NCBI GenBank assembly: GCA_029204225.1
Contig: CM055095.1
Location: 43,052,223-43,116,222, forward strand
Direction of reading: 5' to 3'
From: Diphasiastrum complanatum
Lineage: Eukaryota > Streptophyta > Lycopodiopsida > Lycopodiales > Lycopodiaceae
Length of the DNA stretch: 64,000 bases
Notes under the pieces: model-generated
Databases searched by the model: none
What the model saw: the letters and a program-made list of their open reading frames with translations, nothing else
What the model was told of the DNA's origin: nothing
Program-made: the position numbers and the translations under genes
Shown: in pieces, positions 25,516 through 64,000 of the stretch
Layout of the letters: every line of letters starts with the position of its first letter
How positions within the stretch are numbered: position 1 is the first letter of the stretch

Positions 25516-27861
25516 CACAAAAGGAAGGATAGATCAAAGCTCAAGTGCTTCTATTGTGGCATCAAAGGACACTTTGCAGGTGAGTGCTAAAAGAAGAAGA
25601 GAGATCAAGGAGACAAGCAAGGTAATCTTACTCTTGATGAGGATGCTTTGGATGTTCAAGATGCAAATGATGATGCTTTTGTGATGTCTTCATGTAAGCT
25701 TGCTAATGATGGAGATCTAGATCCTTGGTGGATTGATAATGGAGAAAGTTCACACATGATTTTTCACAAAGAGTATTTCACTTCTTTGTTGGCATATGGA
25801 GATGACAAGAGGGTGATCTACACGGCCAATGATGGTGAGTGTGCAATCAAAGGGATTGGCACAATTCCTATTTCTCTCTCTACAAATAGGAATGTTCATT
25901 TTGAAGGATGTCTTGTTTATTCGATCTATTACCAAGAATTTGCCTAGTGTAAGTCAAATGCTAAGTAAAGGCCTCAAGGTTGAGTTTGATGGAGATGCTT
26001 GTATGATCAAAAGAAAGGATGTCTTGGTTGAAAAAGGTAAAAGACAAGGGAAGTTGTTCAAACTAGATGCTTCTGTTATTGCTAACCAAGTTGGACGTGT
26101 TGCAAGAGAGAAAATACCTATTCAAGATGTTTGGCAGAGAAGTATGGGACACCTCAACTTCAAGTCATTGGAGGTAATGGGAACAAGGTTGTGATTGGTC
26201 TTCCAAGTTCCTTAAGCAGGATCAATCATGTTTGTGAGTCTTGTGCTTTGTCAAAAGTCACATAGACTACCTTATAATAGATCTACATCTAGATCTACAA
26301 AGCCTTTTCAACTTGTACATTCGGATCTTCATGGTTTTACTACAACTAGCAATAGTGGAGCTAAAATGTATGTAACTTTCATTGATGATTTTAGTAGATT
26401 TTGTTCGATCTATCTACTAAAGAGCAAGGATGAAGTGTATGATGTTTTTATCGAGTTCAAGAATGCAAGGGAGAACTAATTTTTCACAAAGATCAAGTGC
26501 TTAAGAAGTGACAATGGTGGTGAGTACATATCTACCAAGTTCAAGGCCCCACAACAAAATGGAGTGGCTAAAAGGAAGAATAGGACTTTATGTGAAAGTG
26601 CCAAAGCCATGAGGTTAAGTGCTAAACTTGATAAGTCATTTTAGGATCGAGCATTGTTGTGTGCCAATTTCTTGTGCAATAGGTGGCCAGGTGCTATTTT
26701 GGATGGAAGGACACTTTTTGAGATGCTATGCAAGAGGAGGCCAAGTGTCAACTTTCTAAGAACTTTTGGATGCACATGCTATGTCAACATTACTCTTGAT
26801 GATACGACCAAGGACAATCCATCTTCAAGAAGAGGTGTTTTTGTTGGATATATTGAGGTGAGTAAAGCCTATAAGATTTACATTCCTTCTACTAACAAAG
26901 TGTTTGTTAGTAGAGATGTCATTTTTTATGAGGGGAACATTCCAAAAGTGTCTTCAAGCATGATTGTTAAAGGTGTGGATGGATCTAACATTCTTGATGT
27001 TGATGTAAAGGATCCTACTTTAGATGGTGATGATGATGGACCTTCATCAAGTCAAAAGCCAAGGAGAACATCAAGGGAAAGGCAAGCACCTTCAAGGCTC
27101 ACATATGATGAAAATGGTAAGCAAATAGTTTCTGAAAATTATGCTGCTTTCCTTACCTCTTTTGATGAACCTACAAGTGTAGATGAAGCAAGGAAAGAAG
27201 AGGAGTGGATTCAAGCAATGGATCTTGAGTATCAAGCTATTATGAAGAATGGAACATGGAGATTGGTGGAGTTATCTAAGGACAAGAAAACTATTGGATG
27301 CAAATGGATCTTCAAGGTGAAGATAAACCAAGATGGATCTATCAACAAGTACAAGACAAGGATAGTGGCAAAAGAAAATGCTCAACAACAACAGATTGAC
27401 TATGATGAGACCTTTGCACCCGTGGCAAAGATGGTAAGCATTCGAGTCATCATCTCACTTGCTACACTTTATGGATGGGATCTATGACACATGGACATTA
27501 CAAATGCATTCTTGAATGGTGGTCTTGAGGAGGAAGTGTACATGGAGCAACCCAAGAGCTACTTTTCATCAACAAATCCAAATCATGTGTGTCTACTACA
27601 AAAGAGTTTGTATGGCCTTAAACAAGCACCAAGGAGTTGTATGCTAAGCTTAACACTTTTTACTCTCTTAGGGCTTTGTTATGAGTGAGTATGATCATTC
27701 ACTTTAATATAGATTTGCTGGAAATGATGTTACCATCTTGCTAATCTATGTGGATGATATCATCTTAAGTGGTGGAGACAATCAAGATGTGGAGGATATC
27801 AAGAGTGCTCTTAACAAGGAGTTTGAGGTGCATGATTTTGGTAATTCGCATTACATTTTGG
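25505..27861 (+). pseudogene. Copia H: 5'-truncated gag-pol
   Basis: Starts in the Gag zinc knuckle (CFYCGIKGHFAGEC, CX2CX4HX4C). Protease follows with WWIDNGESSHMI, where DNG replaces the usual DSG. Integrase begins with the pre-integrase region (MGHLNFKSLE) and CESCALSKSHRLPY, then DLHGFTTTSNSG, FIDDFSRF, RSDNGGEYISTKF and QNGVAKRKNRTL. After a Ser/Arg-rich linker, RT has GCKWIFKVKINQDGSINKYK and, near 27750, YVDD (LIYVDDIILSGGDNQ). It is cut at 27861 by the LTR of element B. Stops and frameshifts at about 25587, 25945, 26190, 26478, 26642, 27485 and 27640 make it dead. Confidence 0.9.
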
Positions 27862-28841
27862 TGTTGGAAAGAGGTGTGTAAAAGATAGGTTGAAAAGAAG
27901 CGAATAAAAGGAATTCAAATGATAGGAAAGAAAACTTATCGTACGCAGTGGAATAAACTATCTTCCTCTTTCTCTATGCATGATTACGCCTATCAATTTT
28001 GAGCAAATCAATAGTGATAGAAATCATGATCTTATAGTAACTAGTTTTGAAATCATCAGTACTATAGTAATTACGTAGCCGAACATTTAAGCATTGAATT
28101 ATCAGACAAATAATCAATCGCAAAGAATTATAGAAATGCATACATTTTGAGACAAACTTGAATGCAATAAACAAATAGTATTGATTTAGTATGAAACGAA
28201 ATAGATGTAAATGAGTACAACAAGTTTGCAGTTCGAAACTGCATACTCTAAGCTATTTTTGAATGACTAAACATAATTCTGAATTAAGCACAATGCTGGT
28301 AAGCAGTACGACAATAGCAATCTCTAATCAACTCTAAATAATTGAGCTAGAATGCTCGAGTGTTCAAGCTCGCAGGCTTGAGAGAGAACGCTAACTATTC
28401 AATACTTGATGACCTAAGATCATTGATTATGCTCTAAGATCAACACTAAAACTATAGAAATACGAGCAGCTATTTATACTTAAGCAAATGCAACAACATC
28501 CAATAGTAGGATAACTAGTTTGGTCGTCAATCATAATGGATAGTGAGCTGGCATCCATCCAAGGTGAGTTGGCATCCATCCAATTGAATCTTCCCAAAAA
28601 TTTTGTAGCTTCAATTAAAGCAAACAATAAACTATCTTTCACCCGACAAGATATTCGTCGAACTATGCCCAATGAATGTCAATATGTTAGATGATGTCCG
28701 ATAAGTTGGATCCACCTGTGAATGATTCTCGAGTACTTATGCAGACAATGTAGAAACACGAAGAAAAACTGCAGGTCTGGATAATGATTTGAAGGAAGAT
28801 TAAAATGTCGATTAGTCGATTAGTAGGATAATAATCCAACA
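27862..28841 (-). repeat. 3' LTR of copia B, 980 bp
   Basis: On the minus strand it starts TGTTGGATTATTATCC and ends CTCTTTCCAACA, with 5-bp inverted ends TGTTGG and CCAACA. A polypurine tract (TTAGGAGGGAG on the minus strand) abuts it at 28842-28852. It is inserted into copia H at 27861. Confidence 0.9.
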
Positions 28842-40673: not shown

Positions 40674-41404
40674 TATTGAAAAACAAAATTATCCCAGAAT
40701 GGAATGTCATGCCTGAGACAAGAGATGAGGCATGGAAGATGTTGTCTAACATCAAGATGGACTACAAGCAATATCATGCATGTCCAGAAGATTGTATTTT
40801 ATATCAAGAAAGGTACGAATCACTCAAGAAATGTCCCATTTGTGATACTCCTCGATATAGAGATGATTTGCAAGGGGCAACCATTCCGTGCAAAGTCTTA
40901 CGACCTTTTCCAGTAATTTTATGATTGCAACATTTATTTCGTTGTAAATCTCTTGCACAACTTCTGGACTGACATGCACACCATACCTCTACGGATGGGA
41001 TGATGAGGGTATCTTCAGATTCACCTGCATGGAAATACATCAACAAAGATTATCCAAGCTTTGCCAATGAGTCAACAAATGTGAGATTTGGTCTTGCAAC
41101 AGATGGTGTGAACCCCTTTGGTGTACGAGCAACTACGTGGTCCATTTGGTCTATTTGCTTGGTAAATTATAATATTCCTCTTTGGTTGAGTACAAAAAAG
41201 GGACAATTTATATTGACACTTCTAATTCCTGGCAAATGCAAGGTAAAGAACATGGATGTGTATCTTGAGCCGGTTATTGACGAGTTGGAAGATTTGTGGA
41301 AGGGGATAAATGCTTTTTGCATCCCTTACATGAGAGGGAGATTACACTACATGCCATTGTAATGTGGACAATGCATGACTATCCAGGATTAGGTGAATGC
41401 TCAG
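40674..41404 (+). pseudogene. CACTA Tnp2 core exon, unit 1
   Basis: RLLKNKIIPEWNVMPETRDE, then YHACPEDCILYQERYESL and CPICDTPRYRDD (the Cys-rich CP--C block). After a stop near 40921 it continues SPAWKYINKDYPSFANES, NVRFGLATDGVNPFGV, then LVNYNIPLWLSTKKGQFILT, LLIPGKCKVKNMDVYLEPVI and DELEDLWKGI. The exon ends GECSG at a GT donor at 41405. Matches the Transposase_21 (tnp2) family. It would bind and cut the CACTA ends. Stops at about 40921, 40969 and 41360. Confidence 0.9.
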
Positions 41405-41566
41405 GTAATCATTCAAACAATGTCTATCTTGTGTACATAGGAGTTTGTTTGTAGTTACATACAACTAGTAATTCTTGACATTTACATGATATACTACAAT
41501 GGCTATAATTATTCTTTGACATATACTTTTTTAAGTACTGATTGATAGTATCCATTTGTTGGGCAG
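41405..41566 (+). other. Tnp2 intron, unit 1
   Basis: GTAATC...GGGCAG, 162 bp. Removing it joins CSG to FQTAGKN in frame. The intron sits at the same place in all three copies (44106-44267 and 49693-49854). Confidence 0.85.
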
Positions 41567-41880
41567 GCTTTCAAACGGCAGGAAAAAATGCTTGTTTTTT
41601 GTGCGGGCCAAATCTTGTTGAAAGATACTCTTATAGTCTCAAAAAAGTGGTCTGTGAAAGTCATCGTAAATACTTGCATGAAGGCCATCCATTCAAAGAC
41701 ACTCATAGAAGAGGTTTGGAGGAAGAGTTGAGAGAAAGATGCCTCCAAAGAGGATGATTGAATATGTTGCAGATGGATGTGTTCAAAAGAAATCCGTGAG
41801 TTGGATCTTCGCAAGAGACATGAGCATATGGTGGAGATTGTGTGCATGTTTGAGAGATTTGTGTGCATATTCGTGTTGGC
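41567..41880 (+). pseudogene. CACTA Tnp2 next exon, unit 1
   Basis: Reads FQTAGKNACFLCGPNLVERY, then LKKVVCESHRKYLHEGHPFK, like the C--C...HRR-L---H-F block of tnp2. Beyond about 41750 another frame reads EIRELDLRKRHEHMVEIVCM, which belongs to the much later C-terminal tnp2 region (compare 55620). This means an internal deletion. It then joins SET-like sequence at about 41870. Confidence 0.8.
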
Positions 41881-43366: not shown

Positions 43367-44105
43367 CTATTGAAAAACAAAATTCTCCCAGAAGAGAATG
43401 TCATGCCTGAGACAAGGGATGAGGCACGAAAGATGTTGTCTAACATCGAGATGGACTACAAGCAATATCATGCATGTCCAAAAGATTGTATTTTATATCA
43501 AGGAAGGTACGAATCACTCGAGAAATGTCCCATTTGTGATACTCCTCGACATAGAGATGATTTGCAGGGGGAAACCATTCCGTGCAAAGTCTTACGACAT
43601 TTTCCAGTAAATTTACGATTGCAACGTTTATTTTGTTGTAAATCTCTTGCACAACTTATGGACTGGCAAGAACACCATACCTCTACGGATGGGATGATGA
43701 GGGTACCTTCAGATTCACCTGCATAAAAACACATCAACAAAGAGTATCCAAGCTTTGCCAATAAGTCAAGAAATGTGAGATTTGGTCTTGCAACAGAGGG
43801 TGTGAACCCCTTTGGTGTATGAGCAACTACGTGGTCCATTTGGTCTCTTTTCTTGGTAAATTATAATATTTCTCTTTGGTTGAGTACAAAAAAGGGACAC
43901 ATTATATTGGCACTTCTAATTCCTGGCCAACGCAAGGTTAAGAACATGGATGTGTATCTTGAGCCGCTTATTGACGAGTTGGAAGATTTGTGGAAGGGGA
44001 TAAATGCATATGACATTTCGCACCTCTTACATGAGAGGGAGTTTACACTACATGCCATTGTAATGTGGACAATGCATGACTATCCAAGATTATGTGAATG
44101 CTCAG
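43367..44105 (+). pseudogene. CACTA Tnp2 core exon, unit 2
   Basis: RLLKNKILPEENVMPETRDE, then YHACPKDCILYQGRYESL, CPICDTPRHRDDLQGET, PVNLRLQRLFCCKSLAQLMD, SPA with a stop near 43726, then NVRFGLATEGVNPFGV, LALLIPGQRKVKNMDVYLEP and DELEDLWKGINAYDISHLL. It ends CECSG at the GT donor at 44106. It keeps the segment around 43600-43700 that is broken in unit 1, so the two copies decayed independently. Confidence 0.9.
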
Positions 44106-44267
44106 GTAATCATTCAAACAATGTCCATCTTGTGTAAATAGGAGTTTGTTTACAGTTACATACAACTAGTAATTCTTGACATTTACATGATATACTACAA
44201 TGGCTATAATTATTCTTTGACATATACTTTTTTTAATAGTGATTAATAGTATCCATTTGTTGGGCAG
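44106..44267 (+). other. Tnp2 intron, unit 2
   Basis: GT...CAG, 162 bp, same position as in unit 1. Confidence 0.85.
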
Positions 44268-44925
44268 GCTTTCAAACGGCTGAAAAAAGTGCTTGTTTTT
44301 TGTGCGGGCCAAATCTTGTTGAAAGATACTCTTATAGTCTCAAAAAAGTGGTTTATGAAAATCATCGTAAATACCTGCATGAAGGTCATTCATTCAGAGA
44401 CACTCATAGAAGAGGTTTGGAGGAAGAATTGAGAGAGAGATGCCTCCAAAGAGGATGTCTTTGAAAGATTGGCGAAAACTATGGGAGGAATCTCAAGCAA
44501 AGCCAATCGATGGTATGAAAAGATTACCTATATTTCATCGTTTGGAATATTGGAATAAACTTTTTATTAATCACCTACTTGATCCCATGCACATCTATCT
44601 GGAAACACTTGATTGGTGAAAAAGATATTATTGCTGCAAGGCACGATCTAAAAGAATCAAACACCAAAAAAGAATATTGGATAACGGATGGTGAAGATCA
44701 TGCTCCAAAAGTACCTTGGACATTCACTAAGGAGGAGCTTAATCATGTGCGCTCCATTATTCATGACATTAGGACACCAACTAGTTTTGCCCATTCTCTA
44801 CGGTCATCATTCACAGTGGACGGAAAGTTGCAAAGTCTCAAATCTCATGAATGGCTAAAGATGATTCAATTCATCTATCCATTGTCAATTCGTGGGTGCT
44901 TGTCAATGATTCTTGTAATTCTAAA
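44268..44925 (+). pseudogene. CACTA Tnp2 middle region, unit 2
   Basis: After FQTAEKSACFLCGPNLVERY it continues, with shifts, through the LPIFHRLEYWNKLFINHLLD-type stretch and MHIYLETLDW, corresponding to the tnp2 LDVMHI motif. A frame then reads HDLKESNTKKEYWI, PWTFTKEELNHVRSII and LKSHEWLKMIQFIYPLSIRG, matching the LKSHD-----L-LP--IRG motif. Homology stops at about 44925. Confidence 0.85.
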
Positions 44926-47222: not shown

Positions 47223-48003
47223 GAAATAGATTTGATTGACTTGAAACTCACAAAGGTCTCACACTTGTAGTGTTTCACTCAAATTTGATTTCTAATCCAA
47301 CAAATGGACTTATAATCACAGTTCTATCACTCCCTCACAAAGCTGGAATGAAGATAAGATGAAGTGAAAACTACTTTCAAACAAATCTTGCCAAGAAATG
47401 GATTTGATTGTCTCTAGAAACTCACTAAGGTCTCTCTCTTGTAGTTTTTCACTCAAATTAGATTTCTAATCCAAAAAATGGACTTATAATCTCAGTTCTA
47501 GCACTCCCTCACAAAGTTGGAATGAAGATAAGATGATGTGAAATCTACTTACAATCAAATCTTGCCAAATTTGGCTATTTTTGGACAAAAAAATGACTTA
47601 ATCTCTTTCTTCCTTCTTGGTGTACTTTCAAGACCTGTTTTTAACCTTAATAGGACTTGATCTCAGCCTAGGTTAATTAGATTCCATGAAACAAATTCAA
47701 ATCTAATCAATGGCAAATGATCTTGGTAGATTATCCTAGGATCTCCACCAAAAATTACACCAATAGCTCACAAATTGAATTTTTTTGGATCAAATGAATA
47801 CCATGCATTAAATGCAGGTTCAGAGGTGCCCACACATGTGGATAGTATGGATTTGGACCCCTACCAAGTTTGGGATCAAATCTCCTCACCAAAATCAAGA
47901 TTCTAGCTTGCCCTCTCAATACTAGTTTTTAGCACCAAAACTTGCTAAAAATGGATTTGCATTAGATCAATGGCTTATGCTCTTGTACTTGGATCTGATA
48001 CCA
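47223..48003 (-). other. Copia E leader and primer site
   Basis: About 780 bp without a gene. A duplicated segment (47225-47370 and 47395-47540) shares GATTTGATTG, CTCACTAAGGTCTC and CACTCCCTCACAAAG. The primer-binding site TGGTATCAGATCC on the minus strand is at 47991-48003. Confidence 0.6.
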
Positions 48004-49610: not shown

Positions 49611-49991
49611 ACCTTACATGAGAGGGAGATTACACTACATGCCATTGTAATGTGGACAATGTATGACTATCCATGATTAGGTGAATGCTCAGGTAATCAT
49701 TCAAACAATGTCTATCTTGTGTACATATGAGTTTGTTTACAGTTACATACAACTAGTAATTCTTGACATTTACATGATATACTACAATGGCTATAATTAT
49801 TCTTTGACATATACTTTTTTTAATAGTGATTAATAGTATCCATTTGTTGGGCAGGCTTTCAAACGGTTGGAAAAAATGCTTGTTTTTTGTGCGGGCCAAA
49901 TCTTGTTGAAAGATACTCTTATAGTCTCAAAAAAGTGGTTTATGAAAATCATCGTAAATACTTGCATGAAGGTCATTCATTCAGAGACACT
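49611..49991 (+). pseudogene. CACTA Tnp2, copy 3, before the F insertion
   Basis: Matches 41332-41700: the end of the core exon (LHAIVMWTM type), the GT-AG intron at 49693-49854, and the FQTVGKNACFLCGPNLVERY exon. It breaks off at ACACT (49987-49991), where element F is inserted, and resumes at 55563. Confidence 0.88.
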
Positions 49992-50638
49992 TGTGAAAAT
50001 TGTCAACATTTCCTTGTCTAGTTTTAGGCCAAAATTGCTAAAAATGGCACATAGTTTAGGATCTGACTTTTCACACGTGTGAAAAAGGTCTAGATATTTT
50101 TAGTAAGTGTATTTTTTCAGTATGAAGAAGTGTCAAACTTCAAGACCTTCGAAATGAGTCCATTTTCATGTATTTTGGACATATATGCCAATTTTACCTA
50201 TATAGGGCATATTTTAGGTAAGGAGGGTCTAGAGAGAGGAGAGAGAGTCATCTCTCTCAGCTATATATAGCAGGTAGGCCGTGGAGAAACAGGTTGGAGC
50301 AGATCCATTGTATTCATTTGCTTAATGAGAGATTTTTCTATTGGGTTCTCCTTCCATTGTTGGCATTGTGTAGTGATTGAGTTCAAGCTTTGTGTGTATG
50401 ATCTTAGGTGCTTTCCAAAAGTGGTAGGCTGATGTATTATGGACTGTATAATGCTATTTTGGGCCGCACTTGATGTTTATGGAAGTTTCCATTTGTGATA
50501 AATGCTTTTTGATCAAGTTCTTTGCATTCTAGGTAGCATAGAATGTGTTGCCAATTCCTAGCTTATGTAGTTTGGAGTGCAAGCATTCAAGCCAATGATC
50601 TTGGAGTTTAGATCCACTTAGGATCTGTATTTTTCACA
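49992..50638 (+). repeat. 5' LTR of copia F
   Basis: Starts TGTGAAAATTG and ends GTATTTTTCACA. A palindromic G-box TCACACGTGTGA lies at 50071-50082 and a TATA-like CTATATATAG at 50261-50270. Transcription probably starts about 30 bp downstream of the latter. Confidence 0.93.
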
Positions 50639-50650
50639 TGGTATCAGAGC
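50639..50650 (+). promoter_or_regulatory. Copia F tRNA primer-binding site
   Basis: TGGTATCAGAGC, the exact initiator-Met type site, directly after the LTR. Confidence 0.92.
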
Positions 50651-51809
50651 TGGTTGGCTTCTATTTACAGTAAGTATTCCATTTTTGGTGATATTTGGAT
50701 GTTTGATCAAGTTCTAGCATGATTTTGCATTGCTTTGTTGATCAAATCTTACTAACCTTTGTTTTGTGAGTTGAACTTGTGGATCAAAAGCATATTTCAG
50801 GTCTATTGAAGATCAGAGGCTGAAAAGAAACTATTTTGGATCAGATCATAACACCTAATCATTTGTGATTGTGAGCTTGTGCATATTCAATACTAACAAT
50901 GTTCTTTTCAATCCTATTGTTGACAATCTCCATTCTTGGATGAACACTCTCCTTAAGTGGATGAAACTTCTCCTTAAGTGGATGACAAATGCTCTTTTGA
51001 GTGAGTTGTAATTCTCCTAAAGGCTGAGCAAAGCTCCCATTTGGATGAAAGATCCCCTTTTTTGGGTGAACATATTGTAAGCTCCATTGTGAAGAGCATA
51101 TTGTAAAGATTGTCATCAATTTTGGCATAAATTTTGGTGTACTTTGTTGAGCATGTAAGTAACTCTCCTTATGTAATTTGATTGGAGCATTTGCTGGAAG
51201 GTGTTAACCATTATGCAAGTGTGTTTTCAGGTTCTTAACAGGTTGAGGAACATTCTCATGTGAAGTGATCTTAGATCTACATCTAAACACCAAGATTTGA
51301 CAAGATAGTGAAGCTAGTCTTGTGATTCACTAAGTGTGCTCATTCATTCACCTCTAAATCTTGTATTTATCACTTGCTGGAGTTTATAAACTTTTAGAAG
51401 TGTGGTTTACATGTGGTTTTACAGGTTGAATCAATATCTTAGTGTGTTGATCATATGTTGATCAAGTTTGTTCATTACTAGGTAATCTTGGCATCCTAGT
51501 TTTGGGTATTTTCTAAGAATGCAAGTAACTCTTCACACCATAACTTGATTTGGTCACTTGCTGGAAAGTTTGAGAGCTTAAGCAAGAGTGTGTTCAGGTT
51601 GGTTTGATTTTGTAATCCATTCTTAGTGTGTGCAAAGTGTTGCATGTGTTTCAATCTTCCTTTCTATGCTTGGAAACCATCTAGGTTCAAGATAGAAGTG
51701 TTTTAGGGTCCTAAATCTTCATAGATCTCTTTATCTATCATTTGTTGAGAGAAAAGTGAGTGCTAAGTGCTTTAGGACAGAACCTAAAAGTTGAAGAAAC
51801 ATTAGAATC
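50651..51809 (+). other. Copia F leader
   Basis: About 1.16 kb with no plus-strand gene. CAGTAAGTATT at about 50669 could act as a splice donor, and several TTTACAGG or TTCAGG strings downstream could act as acceptors. Weak tandem repeats of CTCCTTAAGTGGATGAA lie at about 50950-51075. Nearly identical to the leader of element G. Confidence 0.6.
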
Positions 51810-54800
51810 ATGGCTTCCAATGGTGGGATCATGCTAGAGTCTAGTGAAAGGTTGAGTTCATCAAACTACTCTACTTGGAAAGTGAGGATGGAGTCCTTAC
51901 TTGAGTTGAATGAACTCATGGACATAGTTGCAGAAATTGAAGAGAGACCTCTCACACTTCAAGAGCAACAAAGGTTTGATAAGAAGGCCAAAAGGGCTCT
52001 TCATATCATTAAAATGAATGTTACAAATGAACTTCTCAAGGAAGTTGGAAAGTGTCAAAGTGCAAGTGAGGCATGGAATGCCTTAAAGAAGCTCTTTGAA
52101 TCAAAGTCCACATCTAGGGTATTGACCCTAAGGAGACAAATATTTTCTAGTAGGCAAAGAGAGGGTGAAAGTGCTCATGCATTTATCTTGAGAGTTAAGT
52201 CCCTAAGTGATGATTTAGCATGCATTGATGAGAACATAAAAGATGGTGAAATAGTCCAAGTTATGTTGAATGGTTTGCTAAATGAACATGCTAACCTTGT
52301 GCAAAGTTTTGCCATTCAAAGAGTCTTGCCAAGTGTGGTTGACTTGCAAGAAATCTTATTGGCTGAAGAACATAGGTTGCAATCAAAGCTTGATGGTGCA
52401 TCCTTGCAAGGTGGAGGTGAAGAGGCTTTCTTCACAAAAGGCAAATTCAAGGGCAAAGGTAAAGGCAAAGGGAAATGGTCCAAAGGTGGTAACTTTGATC
52501 ATGATGATCACTCTTCCTCTTCCTCTTCTACTAAGAACAATAAGTCAAAGTTCAAGTACTTTTATTGTGGGATAAAAGGACATTTTGCAAATGAATGCCA
52601 TAAGAAACAAAATGCTAGATCTAGGTTGAGATCTAATGTACTTCTTGGAGATGATAATTGTTGTGCTAACTTGGCAAGCTTTGGTGAATCTATGGTCAAT
52701 TTTTTGGATCCATTGGATCTTGAAGATGCACTAGTGTTACCTACTAGTCATATGGAGTCATGTGGAGCTAAATTAGCATCATGTTTGTACTCTTCTACTC
52801 ATGGACTTCCAAGGCTTGGTGGTTCTTCAATGGTGCTAGATGGCAAGTGCAAAAATGGAAAAGGTAAGGAAGGAGCTAACTTCATCAATGGAGTTGATGA
52901 AGATTCTTCTTTGGAAGTGATTGTTGCTAATGACTTGTTTGTTCATATGGAAAAAGATGGAGATGCTAAGTGTCATTCTTTGCAAGAAGATGGTTGTTCT
53001 TCTAATTCTTTTCATATTGATGTATGTAATCATGTGGGAAAAGATGATGGTGCTTTGAGCATGCTTGAAGGAAATGGTTCTTTTACATCTTTTTGTGATA
53101 AAGTCATTTGTGCAACAAGTGATGTCACATTTCTTCATAAAAAGAGTAGATCAAAGGTTTCTATCATGAGACTTGGTGAGGGAGATCACAAGTCAAAAGG
53201 AAGAGAAGTATGTGAAGTGTTCAAAGTAGGATGTACTTTGAATGATGTTTTTATGAACGATAGTGAGGAAGAATCATTATCATATGACTCATTATCTAAA
53301 TCATTGAGTAGAAGTTCATGTTTGAAAAGAGAGAGTACTTCAATCACTCTTATGTTGAAGGTACTAAGGATTCTTTTCTTGGCTTCTAATATTCAAGAGT
53401 CTTCTACTTCTTATGGTGCAACTATCAAGAGGGAGGTTTCTAACTTTTGTGGTGCTAGCATTAAGAGGGAGTCTTGTGAAGGAAAGGGCAATGGAAGAGT
53501 GGTTCTTGGGAAGATCCAAAGCATGGATCTAACATCTCTTCATCAACTCAAAGCATTCTATGATTGTGGTGGATTGTTCATTCATGGTCAAGATGGCAAA
53601 AGGTTGGTTGAAGAAGACTACATGGAGCAACTCAAGTGGCAACTTCTTCAAGGCAAGGGAGATATCATTGGTGAGCTTATTGAGGTTTGTTATGAACTCA
53701 AGAGGGCTGTTTTGATTAGGTTTGATACTCATCTTCACCTACTCTACTTCATGTTAAATGGAAATGTTGGAATCTATCTTTTGGTTTATGATGGTGGCAT
53801 TGTTTTCACTAACTATAGTGAAGGGTCAAATTTGATCATTGATGAGATCTTGTGGGATCTTAATCATGTGTTTGAGAGGGAGTATCTTCAGAGTTTTAGA
53901 TCTGAAGATGTTCACATATGCAAGATCTTTGATGTCTTATTGGAAGATCAAGAGGTTGATCTTGGATTGCTTCATCAACACCAAGAGACAAGTGGCAATT
54001 CGAAGCTAGTGAAAAGCATCAAAGAAGAGACAAATGGTCAAGGCATTTTGGATCTGTTTTTACAGGTTCTTGAAGGTTCAAGTAAGGTCTTTGGAGCTGC
54101 AAGGAAGTGTCTTCTTACTCTACCTCACTTGCCTAATCTCATGTATGAACATTGTTATGTCAATGTGTTGAAATTGTCAAATTTCAATAAAACTAGTTCC
54201 ATAGTTTTGCATCCTTTGGATCTTGGAGATGGAATAGTTATCATTGCTGGTTTGTATGATCAAGTACATGAATTCATTCAGATCTTGAAAGGTATTGAAG
54301 TGGTCAATATGTTTTCTTTTGAACAAAGTTCAAGATCTAGTATTCTAGTGTTGGCAAATTGGCAACTTGTTGACATTGTAGGATCAAGCGTTGTGTGCAA
54401 ATCTTGTGGAGGTACTTCAAGTATTTCAAGTTCAGGTTTTGGTCATTCAAATGGAGTAGGGAACACATCTTTTTGGCATTCATTCACTCAAAGGCTTTCA
54501 TGGATTGAAGATCTACAAAGGCAAGGTGGTGATGGAAGTTCATTCATGGAGATACATGTTGCATTCACTATATGTATAGTGAAATGTGGAGGAGGCATGC
54601 AAACACTTGTTGATCACTTTCATTTACAACTTGTTTGCTGCTATTTTACAGAGAAACCAGAGATGGATACATGGAGGAATTCATTAATTGAGATTCTATG
54701 TTCTTTTACATGTACCATTTTTATGATTCTATGTAAAATTGATGTAAGAAATAGTGAAGCATCCTATATGGACACTATTATCTATATCAATTATGTTGTG

Positions 54801-54902
54801 TCCTATTTTGTACATATTAGGATCCTTGAGAAGAGATCTATTCTGATGATGGAGATCATTCTTAAGTTGGAACAAAGTAGTGTTGTAAAACTAGCAAGTT
54901 AA
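51810..54902 (+). CDS. Copia F: Gag fused to a long unrecognised region
   Basis: 1030 codons, uninterrupted, starting MASNGGIMLESSERLSSSNY. Residues 1-200 are copia Gag (WKVRMESLLELNELMDIV, ALHIIKMNVTNELLKEVGK, AWNALKKLFESKSTSRVLTL, FILRVKSLSDDLACI, VMLNGLLNEHANLVQSFAIQ). A Gly/Lys-rich stretch follows, then a knuckle at 250-263 reading YFYCGIKGHFANEC, whose first Cys is Tyr (TAC). Residues from about 265 to 1030 match nothing I know: Ser-rich and acidic at first, then better-folded-looking text (GQDGKRLVEEDYMEQLKWQL, LWDLNHVFEREYLQ) and hydrophobic segments near the end (LIEILCSFTCTIFMILCKI). No DSG, HHCC, DDE or YVDD motif. Cytoplasmic particle protein inferred for the Gag part; the rest is unknown. 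Confidence 0.85.
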   Translation: MASNGGIMLESSERLSSSNYSTWKVRMESLLELNELMDIVAEIEERPLTLQEQQRFDKKAKRALHIIKMNVTNELLKEVGKCQSASEAWNALKKLFESKSTSRVLTLRRQIFSSRQREGESAHAFILRVKSLSDDLACIDENIKDGEIVQVMLNGLLNEHANLVQSFAIQRVLPSVVDLQEILLAEEHRLQSKLDGASLQGGGEEAFFTKGKFKGKGKGKGKWSKGGNFDHDDHSSSSSSTKNNKSKFKYFYCGIKGHFANECHKKQNARSRLRSNVLLGDDNCCANLASFGESMVNFLDPLDLEDALVLPTSHMESCGAKLASCLYSSTHGLPRLGGSSMVLDGKCKNGKGKEGANFINGVDEDSSLEVIVANDLFVHMEKDGDAKCHSLQEDGCSSNSFHIDVCNHVGKDDGALSMLEGNGSFTSFCDKVICATSDVTFLHKKSRSKVSIMRLGEGDHKSKGREVCEVFKVGCTLNDVFMNDSEEESLSYDSLSKSLSRSSCLKRESTSITLMLKVLRILFLASNIQESSTSYGATIKREVSNFCGASIKRESCEGKGNGRVVLGKIQSMDLTSLHQLKAFYDCGGLFIHGQDGKRLVEEDYMEQLKWQLLQGKGDIIGELIEVCYELKRAVLIRFDTHLHLLYFMLNGNVGIYLLVYDGGIVFTNYSEGSNLIIDEILWDLNHVFEREYLQSFRSEDVHICKIFDVLLEDQEVDLGLLHQHQETSGNSKLVKSIKEETNGQGILDLFLQVLEGSSKVFGAARKCLLTLPHLPNLMYEHCYVNVLKLSNFNKTSSIVLHPLDLGDGIVIIAGLYDQVHEFIQILKGIEVVNMFSFEQSSRSSILVLANWQLVDIVGSSVVCKSCGGTSSISSSGFGHSNGVGNTSFWHSFTQRLSWIEDLQRQGGDGSSFMEIHVAFTICIVKCGGGMQTLVDHFHLQLVCCYFTEKPEMDTWRNSLIEILCSFTCTIFMILCKIDVRNSEASYMDTIIYINYVVSYFVHIRILEKRSILMMEIILKLEQSSVVKLAS

Positions 54903-54915
54903 GTTGAAGAGGGAG
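54903..54915 (+). promoter_or_regulatory. Copia F polypurine tract
   Basis: GTTGAAGAGGGAG, immediately before the 3' LTR: the expected plus-strand primer. Confidence 0.88.
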
Positions 54916-55562
54916 TGTGAAAATTGTCAACATTTCCTTGTCTAGTTTTAGGCCAAAATTGCTAAAAATGGCACATAGTTTAGGATCTGACTTTTTACAC
55001 GTGTGAAACAGGTCTAGATATTTTTAGTAAGTGTATTTTTTCAGTATGAAGAAGTGTCAAACTTCAAGACCTTCGAAATGAGTCCATTTTCATGTATTTT
55101 GGACATATATGCCAATTTTACCTATATAGGGCATATTTTAGGTAGGGAGGGTCTAGAGAGAGGAGAGAGAGTCATCTCTCTCAGCTATATATAGCAGGTA
55201 GGCCGTGGAGAAACAGGTTGGAGCAGATCCATTGTATTCATTTGCTTAATGAGAGATTTTTCTATTGGGTTCTCCTTCCATTGTTGGCATTGTGTAGTGA
55301 TTGAGTTCAAGCTTTGTGTGTATGATCTTAGGTGCTTTCCAAAAGTGGTAGGCTGATGTATTATGGACTGTATAATGCTATTTTGGGCCGCACTTGATGT
55401 TTATGGAAGTTTCCATTTGTGATAAATGCTTTTTGATCAAGTTCTTTGCATTCTAGGTAGCATAGAATGTGTTGCCAATTCCTAGCTTATGTAGTTTGGA
55501 GTGCAAGCATTCAAGCCAATGATCTTGGAGTTTAGATCCACTTAGGATCTGTATTTTTCACA
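54916..55562 (+). repeat. 3' LTR of copia F
   Basis: 647 bp, differing from the 5' copy at three bases. One change breaks the outer base pair of the G-box palindrome. Confidence 0.93.
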
Positions 55563-55810
55563 ACACTCATAGAAGAGGTTTGGAGGAAGAATTGAGAGAG
55601 AGATGCCTCCAAAGAGGATGATTGAATATGTTGCAGATGGATGTGTTCAAAAGAAATCCGTGAGCTGGATCTTCACAAGAGACATGAGGATATGGTGGAG
55701 ATTGTGTGCATGTTTGAGAGATATTTTCCGACTTCCATTATGGAATCACACGTGCATTTATTGGTGCACTTGGTTGAATAAGTTTCTATTGCTGGTCCAG
55801 TGCACACTAG
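55563..55810 (+). pseudogene. CACTA Tnp2 C-terminal region, copy 3 after F
   Basis: Resumes with the same text as 41697-41860 and, unlike copy 1, continues in tnp2: LRKRHEDMVEIVCMFERYFP, then TSIMESHVHLLVHL and a GPVHTR end. This matches the family's IV-TLCKLER-FPPAFFD-M-HL--HL motif. Intron donor at 55811. Confidence 0.85.
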
Positions 55811-57240: not shown

Positions 57241-57545
57241 ATGAAATCACTACCACAAACTATGACAAAATCAAGTGTTTCATCATAGTCAATCCCCTTG
57301 AATTGAGCATATCCCTTGGCAACTAGTCTTGTTTTATAATTGTTCACACTACCATCTTGATTAAGCTTGATCTTAAAGACCCATTTGCAAACAATAACAT
57401 TTCGTATCTTTGATGGAGGATCAATAATTTTACAAGTATCTCAAACAATGCATCATATACTCACTTTTCATTACATCAAATCACTCTTTTGTTGCTACAG
57501 TTTCATTCACACTTGAAGAAACATCATCAAACTTAAGGTAGTAAT
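57241..57545 (-). pseudogene. Copia RT N-terminal fragment
   Basis: Minus strand: [20 protein letters not shown], then [18 protein letters not shown], the first copia RT block. It is preceded by SSVNETVATKE and FDVMKSEYDALFE. It is about 100 residues long and ends after DET. The family matches the upstream linker-to-RT region of H. Confidence 0.85.
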
Positions 57546-57857
57546 AAGGGCAATAAAAATTAAACCATCATGAACTTGTAATTGCTTCTCTCTTCCTTGT
57601 ATTTGAGTCTTAATGGTTGCATTTGGGCTCTGATACCATGTTGATATCAGAGGTTATGAACCTCATTTGGGTACTAAAACATTGAAAAGGCATCAAAGGT
57701 TAAGGGCAATAAAAATTAAACCATCATGAACTTGTAATTGCTTCTCTCTTCCTTGTATTTGAGTCTTAATGGTTGCATTTGGGCTCTGATACCATGTTGA
57801 TATCAGAGGTTATGAACCTCATTTGGGTACTAAAACATTGAAAAGGCATCAAAGGTT
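57546..57857. repeat. 156-bp tandem duplication holding a primer site and LTR end
   Basis: 57546-57701 and 57702-57857 are essentially identical. Each contains, on the minus strand, GATATCAACA followed by TGGTATCAGAGCCC: the end of a copia LTR and its primer-binding site. Sequence right of the second copy continues as LTR-like DNA. Confidence 0.85.
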
Positions 57858-62297: not shown

Positions 62298-64000
62298 TGT
62301 GAAAATTGTCAACATTTCCTAGCTAGTTTGAGGCCTAAATTGGCTAAAATTGTAAATAGTTTTGGTTCTGGAGTTTCACACGTGTGAACCAGGCCACAAT
62401 GTTTTTATTTACTATATTTTTTCAGTATGATGAAGTGTCAAACTTCATACCCTTCAAAATGAGACCATTTTGATGTATTTTGGTCATATAAGCCATTTTT
62501 AGCTATTTTTCCTATATAGGGAATATCTAGGGTCAAGTACCTTCTAGAGAGAGGAGAGAGAGTCATCTTCCTCATCCATAAATAGTAGGGAAGTCGTGGA
62601 GAATAGGTTGGAGAAACCTTTTGTATGCTTCATTGAGATCAATAGATCATTGTCATTGTTTCTTCCTCCATTGAGAGCATTGTTGTGTGTATTGTCTTCA
62701 AGCTATTGTGTATGATCTTAGGTGCTTTCCAAAAGTGGTAGGCTGATGTATTATGGACTGTATAATGCTATTTTGGGCCGCACTTGATGTTTATGGAAGT
62801 TTCCATTTGTGATAAATGCTTTTTGATCAAGTTCTTTGCATTCTAGGTAGCATAGAATGTGTTGCCAATTCCTAGCTTATGTAGTTTGGAGTGCAAGCAT
62901 TCAAGCCAATGATCTTGGAGTTTAGATCCACTTAGGATCTGTATTTTTCACATGGTATCAGAGCTGGTTGGCTTCTATTTACAGTAAGTATTCCATTTTT
63001 GGTGATATTTGGATGTTTGATCAAGTTCTAGCATGATTTTGCATTGCTTTGTTGATCAAATCTTACTAACCTTTGTTTTGTGAGTTGAACTTGTGGATCA
63101 AAAGCATATTTCAGGTCTATTGAAGATCAGAGGCTGAAAAGAAACTATTTTGGATCAGATCATAACACCTAATCATTTGTGATTGTGAGGCTTGTGCATA
63201 TTCAATACTAACAATGTTCTTTTCAATCCTATTGTTGACAATCTCCATTCTTGGATGAACACTCTCCTTAAGTGGATGAAACTTCTCCTTAAGTGGATGA
63301 CAAATGCTCTTTTGAGTGAGTTGTAATTCTCCTAAAGGCTGAGCAAAGCTCCCATTTGGATGAAAGATCCCCTTTTTTGGGTGAACATATTGTAAGCTCC
63401 ATTGTGAAGAGCATATTGTAAAGATTGTCATCAATTTTGGCATAATTTTTGGTGTACTTTGTTGAGCATGTAAGTAACTCTCCTTATGTAATTTGATTGG
63501 AGCATTTGCTGGAAGGTGTTAACCATTATGCAAGTGTGTTTTCAGGTTCTTAACAGGTTGAGGAACATTCTCATGTGAAGTGATCTTAGATCTACATCTA
63601 AACACCAAGATTTGACAAGATAGTGAAGCTAGTCTTGTGATTCACTAAGTGTGCTCATTCATTCACCTCTAAATCTTGTATTTATCACTTGCTGGAGTTT
63701 ATAAACTTTTAGAAGTGTGGTTTACATGTGGTTTTACAGGTTGAATCAATATCTTAGTGTGTTGATCATATGTTGATCAAGTTTGTTCATTACTAGGTAA
63801 TCTTGGCATCCTAGTTTTGGGTATTTTCTAAGAATGCAAGTAACTCTTCACACCATAACTTGATTTGGTCACTTGCTGGAAAGTTTGAGAGCTTAAGCAA
63901 GAGTGTGTTCAGGTTGGTTTGATTTTGTAATCCATTCTTAGTGTGTGCAAAGTGTTGCATGTGTTTCAATCTTCCTTTCTATGCTTGGAAACCATCTAGG
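62298..64000 (+). mobile_element. Copia G: 5' LTR and leader, cut by window end
   Basis: The LTR at 62298-62952 (655 bp, TGTGAAAATTG to TTTTTCACA) is followed by TGGTATCAGAGC at 62953-62964. The leader runs to the window edge; by comparison with F, gag would start about 125 bp further on. The first 410 bp of the LTR are clearly diverged from F. From about 62711 to 64000 the match to F is almost exact, with two differences noticed. A 14-bp palindrome TTCACACGTGTGAA is at 62375-62388. Confidence 0.9.

Follow-up and report, generated by a model that had tools for sequence, protein, structure and literature searches.

TR-GAG elements are short non-autonomous LTR elements that code for Gag only, and LARDs are non-autonomous, helper-dependent elements with a long non-coding interior. 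In soybean, Du et al. reportedly found an autonomous-nonautonomous partnership in which LTRs were swapped between the partners. The closest system to the present locus that we found is the wheat pair RLG_Quinta and RLG_Cereba. In the available part of its description, RLG_Quinta combines Gag with DUF1, a domain of unknown function, and has neither RT nor integrase; its PBS and LTR ends are common to its autonomous partner RLG_Cereba, and its A and B lineages carry divergent gags that have been swapped between otherwise similar elements (PMC11302176). The same partial text reads conservation in the second LTR half as an indication that the partners are co-expressed. RLG_Sabrina, RLG_WHAM and RLG_Wilma are presented, in the accessible portion of another report, as semi-autonomous makers of Gag with an autonomous partner, and variants of Sabrina have other coding stretches in place of the gag-protease region (PMC9744471). 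For the Arabidopsis copia element ONSEN, the available text describes bursts in which templates were switched both in R and within coding sequence, most LTR recombinants fitting a first template switch in R (PMC5668417).

Here we analyse element F, which lies in a 64,000-nucleotide stretch of Diphasiastrum complanatum DNA (the window, meaning the whole stretch that was analysed). Like RLG_Quinta as far as described, F has a Gag ORF without RT or INT, a PBS and LTR termini identical to those of an autonomous family, here represented by element G, and a second LTR half conserved with that partner (R/U5 100%, U3 73%). It differs in being copia, whereas RLG_Quinta is a centromeric Gypsy element whose origin from Cereba the available text places 28-35 million years ago (PMC11302176). 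It differs further in that one of its gags, type 1, is nearly identical to that of the helper, in that two gags and their mosaics occur among very young copies, and in that part of its extension is traceable to pol. RLG_Sabrina, RLG_WHAM and RLG_Wilma, in the portion consulted, are Gypsy elements with Gag-protease and with partner homology down to a few motifs, and the recombination described for ONSEN is within one family rather than between a helper and a semi-autonomous partner. F is a Gag-only LTR element comparable to TR-GAG elements, but its Gag is fused in frame to a 765-codon extension, and its interior, open over 1030 codons, is unlike the non-coding interior of a LARD. Judged by titles and the beginnings of abstracts, a survey that does not prove absence, we recognized no copia case with these features in the literature. 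Together, F and G would be the copia equivalent of Cereba and Quinta in wheat. The explanation that we regard as probable is that F belongs to a semi-autonomous copia family that uses G-type enzymes, is of recombinant origin and carries an extension held open as a frame.

Structure of element F

Element F spans positions 49992-55562, and most of its interior is occupied by a single plus-strand ORF (51810-54902; 1030 codons, from ATG to TAA). The two LTRs (49992-50638 and 54916-55562) have 3 mismatches in 647 positions, the element ends in TG...CA, and an ACACT duplication flanks both sides. The marks by which the initial annotation had recognized a fresh insertion, namely the 5-bp duplication and the near-identical LTRs, were confirmed, as was the unbroken ORF. 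The primer binding site, TGGTATCAGAGC, is one that we take to be of the initiator-tRNA-Met type. The target of the insertion is a repeat, paralogous copies of which at 41324-41858 and 44026-44457 are uninterrupted and lack the insert.

Table 1. Positions of features of elements F and G, counted from the first letter of the window.
Feature	Position	Strand	Basis or remark
Target-site duplication ACACT	left 49987..49991, right 55563-55567		sequence
U3 part of 5' LTR, F-family type	49992..50392	+	helper U3 73% identical, gap columns counted
R/U5 part of 5' LTR	50393..50638	+	identical to helper G; first recombination junction at left edge; U3/R boundary putative
Primer binding site TGGTATCAGAGC	50639..50650	+	directly after 5' LTR
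5' leader, helper type in element F	50651..51809	+	comparison with helpers
gag, helper type (type 1)	51810..52604	+	zinc knuckle without first Cys in F; crossover to extension within 52574-52580
Extension	52605..54902	+	765 codons and stop; open in 10 of 10 copies read
Block B, common to elements F and H	52716..52826	+	F/H comparison
Diverged piece of copia reverse transcriptase	53562..53888	+	YDGG where G has YVDD
Block A, common to elements F and H	53928..54260	+	substitutions even over codon positions
Block C, common to elements F and H	54486..54893	+	F/H comparison
Purine tract GAAGAGGGAG	54906..54915	+	directly 5' of 3' LTR; helper has same tract
3' LTR of element F	54916..55562	+	LTR alignment
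Element G, autonomous helper type	62298..64000, continues outside the window (L009:121-6551)	+	part in window is only LTR and leader; gag-pol 1317 codons open

The ORF begins with a copia-type Gag (Pfam Retrotran_gag_2 at residues 27-192, E 1e-22). With this gag, TG..CA LTRs, a 5-bp duplication, a PBS and a PPT, F is a Ty1/copia element. Pfam detected none of the pol domains of the PR-INT-RT-RH order in F, and F is therefore a non-autonomous derivative rather than a complete copia. The first cysteine of the zinc knuckle is gone in F (TAC instead of TGC at 52558), but it is present in G and in all six copies checked at the end of gag (L030-L035). Because all six keep it, we dropped the idea that the loss marks an old F lineage.

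An autonomous helper-type element

Followed past the end of the window, element G is 6431 bp long, its LTRs have 2 differences in 655 positions, and it is flanked by the duplication CCCAA. Its gag-pol frame, 1317 codons without a stop, contains RVT_2 (E 4e-78), the rve integrase core, a pre-integrase domain and Retrotran_gag_2, with integrase preceding RT. The earlier statement that every enzyme-bearing copia here is dead is contradicted by this open frame with its copia RT and integrase domains. G had also been read as a second member of the family of F; because G is, beyond the window edge, an intact autonomous copia, it is not a second F but the helper type, and the further members of the F family lie elsewhere in the genome (see below). 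The region C4:42952223-43224390 (272,168 bp) holds four full-length, near-identical (99.6%) G-type copies with 5-bp duplications; in three of them the gag-pol frame is interrupted early by a stop (codons 564, 685 and 1047), and G alone is fully open. A decayed copia at 25522-27869, with about 61% protein identity to G, served as a pol reference.

The presence of an intact G about 7 kb from F bears out the idea of a young Gag-only family with a candidate helper. From the shared ends, PBS and leader we infer that F is mobilized in trans: the F family would make Gag and no enzymes, and would be copied by the protease, RT and integrase of G-type autonomous copia elements.

Recombinant composition of element F

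Compared with four helpers, F has a single private difference between 50393 and 52557, a 1-base gap at 50874. Within the LTR, its identity to G is 73% to the left of 50393 (U3) and 100% to the right. This difference is not a peculiarity of G, as the other helpers share the U3 type of G, and F is thus the odd one in U3. After gag, F carries the extension where helpers carry pol, the junction being placed between 52574 and 52580 by comparison with other copies, and the purine tract and the start of the 3' LTR again match the helper. By these alignments F is a recombinant of helper-type and F-family sequence. The junctions are seen in the sequence, and the mechanism that we infer from them is template switching: two co-packaged RNAs would have been reverse transcribed together, the helper RNA giving F its R-U5, leader and gag and an older family RNA giving the extension and U3; the template would have been switched once within the LTR and once more at the gag/extension junction. 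A pattern of one LTR junction and one interior junction is expected when strands are transferred between two RNAs packaged together.

Young copies and gag exchange

A genome-wide search identified the extension at full length, stop-free and 99-100% identical in all 60 places scored, F included. These were the best 60 of 19,146 first-look candidates, ranked by protein, so that broken copies are under-represented and the result means that many intact young copies exist without giving the intact fraction. The F family has at least 59 members besides F. The stop-to-stop frames at the 60 places, tallied by eye, measure 1035 codons in 36, 1053 in 16, 1057 in 2, 1059 in 1, 1036 in 1 and 765-991 in 4, the last four having a broken gag part.

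We compared ten copies (F and L030-L038), nine of which could be assigned by gag. F was typed by direct comparison with helpers, and L031-L035 on the 223 columns that separate helper gag (reference G2) from L030 gag; L036-L038 were handled likewise, except that L038, whose 5' part reads N and whose extension is open, was left out of the typing. Five of the nine have the helper gag, type 1 (F, L031, L033, L035 and L037), one has a second gag (L030, itself the reference for type 2) and three have a mosaic, switching near 52166 in L034 and near 52417 in L032 and L036. The two gag types have 80% protein identity and differ at 35, 30 and 102 sites by codon position (omega 0.12). Each of the nine copies is flanked by a 5-bp duplication, and its LTRs differ at 0-4 sites. 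L032 and L036 carry the same mosaic between different duplications (TCTGA and TTCAT), with 0 and 1 LTR differences, and the recombinant has therefore itself been copied. Not every copy is intact, as a 1-base deletion separates gag from the extension in L033 and the open gag frame of L035 is shortened. In the extension, seven copies show 5 silent and 4 replacement changes, in a sample biased by the ranking on protein. Among very young copies, the F-family core has also been combined with the second gag and with mosaics of the two types. Helper type and partner lie close together and gags were exchanged this recently, so that the steps of the partnership can be ordered.

The identity of gag and leader between F-family and helper elements could instead have arisen by gene conversion between integrated copies, which is likewise expected to leave clean blocks. 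We consider this very unlikely, because the positions of the junctions, one within the LTR and the others within gag, are those that strand transfer predicts, and because the recombinants have perfect 5-bp duplications and few LTR differences, one mosaic class being present at two sites. Template switching remains the mechanism that we favour.

Content and origin of the extension

Pfam gave no match for residues 281-1030, and none at E up to 10 when the extension was divided into four pieces; if the extension were a captured host gene, a match to a host protein family would be expected, and Pfam showed no such family. Rfam and viral contigs gave none for the extension, copia profiles of PR, INT, RT and RH did not recognize it, and among PDB sequences there were only weak Ma2 matches (E 0.11-0.15), which fall on the gag part and not on the extension. 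AlphaFold2, run on the extension alone without an alignment, returned a mean pLDDT of 32.

One part of the extension does resemble pol. Residues 585-689 of the ORF (105 residues) can be aligned with G's RT at a blastp E of 2e-5. The Smith-Waterman score of this block against G is 87, where 200 shuffles reached no more than 65; the margins are narrower when scored in two alternative ways (94 against 88, and 104 against 89). At the DNA level the score is 402, and the highest among 100 shuffles was 345. A profile of five copia RTs, however, misses the block (0.6 bits, where 500 shuffles reach 5.7). In a windowed DNA comparison of the extension with five pol references, z exceeded 3.5 in 11 of 110 window-by-reference comparisons, 2 of them off the pol diagonal, with reverse-strand controls ranging from -2.8 to 2.8; one window was placed differently by two references, and the windows overlap and hence are not independent. 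We conclude with good confidence that the RT block derives from pol, and the stretch just before it is possibly pol-derived. The idea that the extension is colinear with pol throughout was weakened, as the RT block alone is firm, the preceding stretch is suggestive and the RNase H part is unconvincing. In our reading the extension descends, at least partly, from a pol whose catalytic residues have been lost. The earlier observation that no protease, integrase, RT or RNase H motif follows Gag holds for Pfam and profile matches, but it overlooked this diverged RT piece without YVDD.

The openness of the extension is not due to chance. When the extension was simulated 500 times with a first-order Markov model, the longest open stretch averaged 81 codons and reached at most 176, against 760 in the real sequence, and 36-58 stops would be expected where 0 are observed. 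The 765 open codons also show a codon-like phase bias.

Frame and amino acids of the extension

Element H (L010-L011) is a copia relative whose protein is 64% identical to that of G in residues 1-825. Extension-like blocks follow at the place of RT, then RNase H, then an LTR, and H continues as a tandem array sharing LTRs. The array (C4:43129248 on) consists of partial units that share four LTRs, of which LTRs 2 and 3 are identical.

The initial annotation had proposed that dN/dS be computed separately for the Gag and extension parts. The F/H extension blocks, which cover 279 codons, differ at 79, 76 and 66 sites at positions 1, 2 and 3 (omega 1.06, bootstrap 0.75-1.55), whereas gag is constrained: F and H differ there at 64, 48 and 127 sites by codon position (omega 0.14, with synonymous sites near saturation), in line with the value between the two gag types. 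For pol of G and H, omega is 0.19. Over 251 ungapped codons, a single stop interrupts H in the frame of F, against 9 and 26 in the other two frames. Reshuffling the observed substitutions yields a mean of 10.5 stops (P 0.0002), and reshuffling half of them a mean of 5.7 (P 0.016); the deficit is modest if stops could accumulate on the H branch alone. The F/H comparison involves one relative and 251-279 of 765 codons, a third of the extension, and its blocks come from tblastn and hence are free of frameshifts by construction. Blocks B and C of H lie outside its open frame, shifts of 1-2 bases occur, and there are many stops beyond the shared blocks. An omega of about 1 together with the stop deficit in H means that the frame looks kept and the amino acids do not; in this comparison the extension appears to be held open as a frame without preservation of its amino acids.

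The initial annotation had suggested that an extension kept open is a protein in use. The extension is indeed long, fused and open, but in the third of it that can be compared with H its amino acids are not conserved. If it is a working protein, it could be a Gag tail for packaging, for particle targeting or for the capture of helper enzymes, either fast-evolving or selected for structure. The phase bias over the open codons, the 60 of 60 best-scoring copies that are open and near-identical, the constancy of the extension among the nine assigned copies while gag varies, and the shortage of stops in H all fit such a role. Yet young copies are identical because they are young, the extension belongs to no Pfam family and is predicted with low pLDDT, its sole recognizable piece is a dead RT, and the lower bound of omega over the 279 codons, 0.75, exceeds the value of about 0.57 that we estimate for an F branch constrained like gag and a free H branch. 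We therefore regard a working protein as possible but doubtful.

Two outcomes had been named as speaking against a used protein, and each came out in part. Copies with the extension full of stops and dN/dS near 1 are represented by the H relic, with its omega of about 1 and its stops outside the blocks, but not by the 60 best scorers, and stops within the blocks are few. A decayed pol is represented by the RT block, but in-frame stops in the H blocks are fewer than expected. The second outcome, in its plain form, is that the extension is decayed pol and filler, spread in a burst from one copy that was open by chance, so that its openness has no role. The RT-derived block without catalytic residues, the omega near 1 and the stops and shifts of the H relic outside the shared blocks agree with this account; the absence of the 36-58 expected stops, the simulated maximum far short of the real frame, and the stop deficit in H as well make it unlikely.

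Possible reasons for an open frame

We thus return to an extension held open as a frame in a semi-autonomous family. Were the frame to end after gag, about 2.3 kb of interior and the LTR would lie untranslated downstream, and the genomic RNA could become a target of decay, either nonsense-mediated or linked to silencing. That an open frame shields the packaged RNA is, tentatively, the likeliest reason for the openness. For the Arabidopsis element EVD, the available text reports that siRNAs map to the short spliced gag RNA and not to the full-length unspliced RNA, and also that the full-length RNA is retained in the nucleus and little translated (PMC8892269). The latter speaks against a need for shielding during translation, and we take shielding as a pointer only.

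A stricter version, which we consider rather improbable, is that the extension is a frame without a message: its 765 codons would be kept open by selection against stops alone, while the amino acids drift and the translated RNA escapes decay or silencing. If true, such ORFs would mimic genes and would be met again in further elements of the Gag-plus-DUF kind, Quinta among them. The openness of a frame and the use of its protein, which are usually taken together, are separated here, and the question of why Gag-only elements carry long extensions becomes testable.

Other repeats in the window

Two further repeats were noted. At 57545-57856, 156 bp are duplicated in perfect tandem, and at 47240-47568 a 155-bp repeat is present twice, with copies 91% alike, adjoining a minus-strand copia gag ORF of 291 codons.
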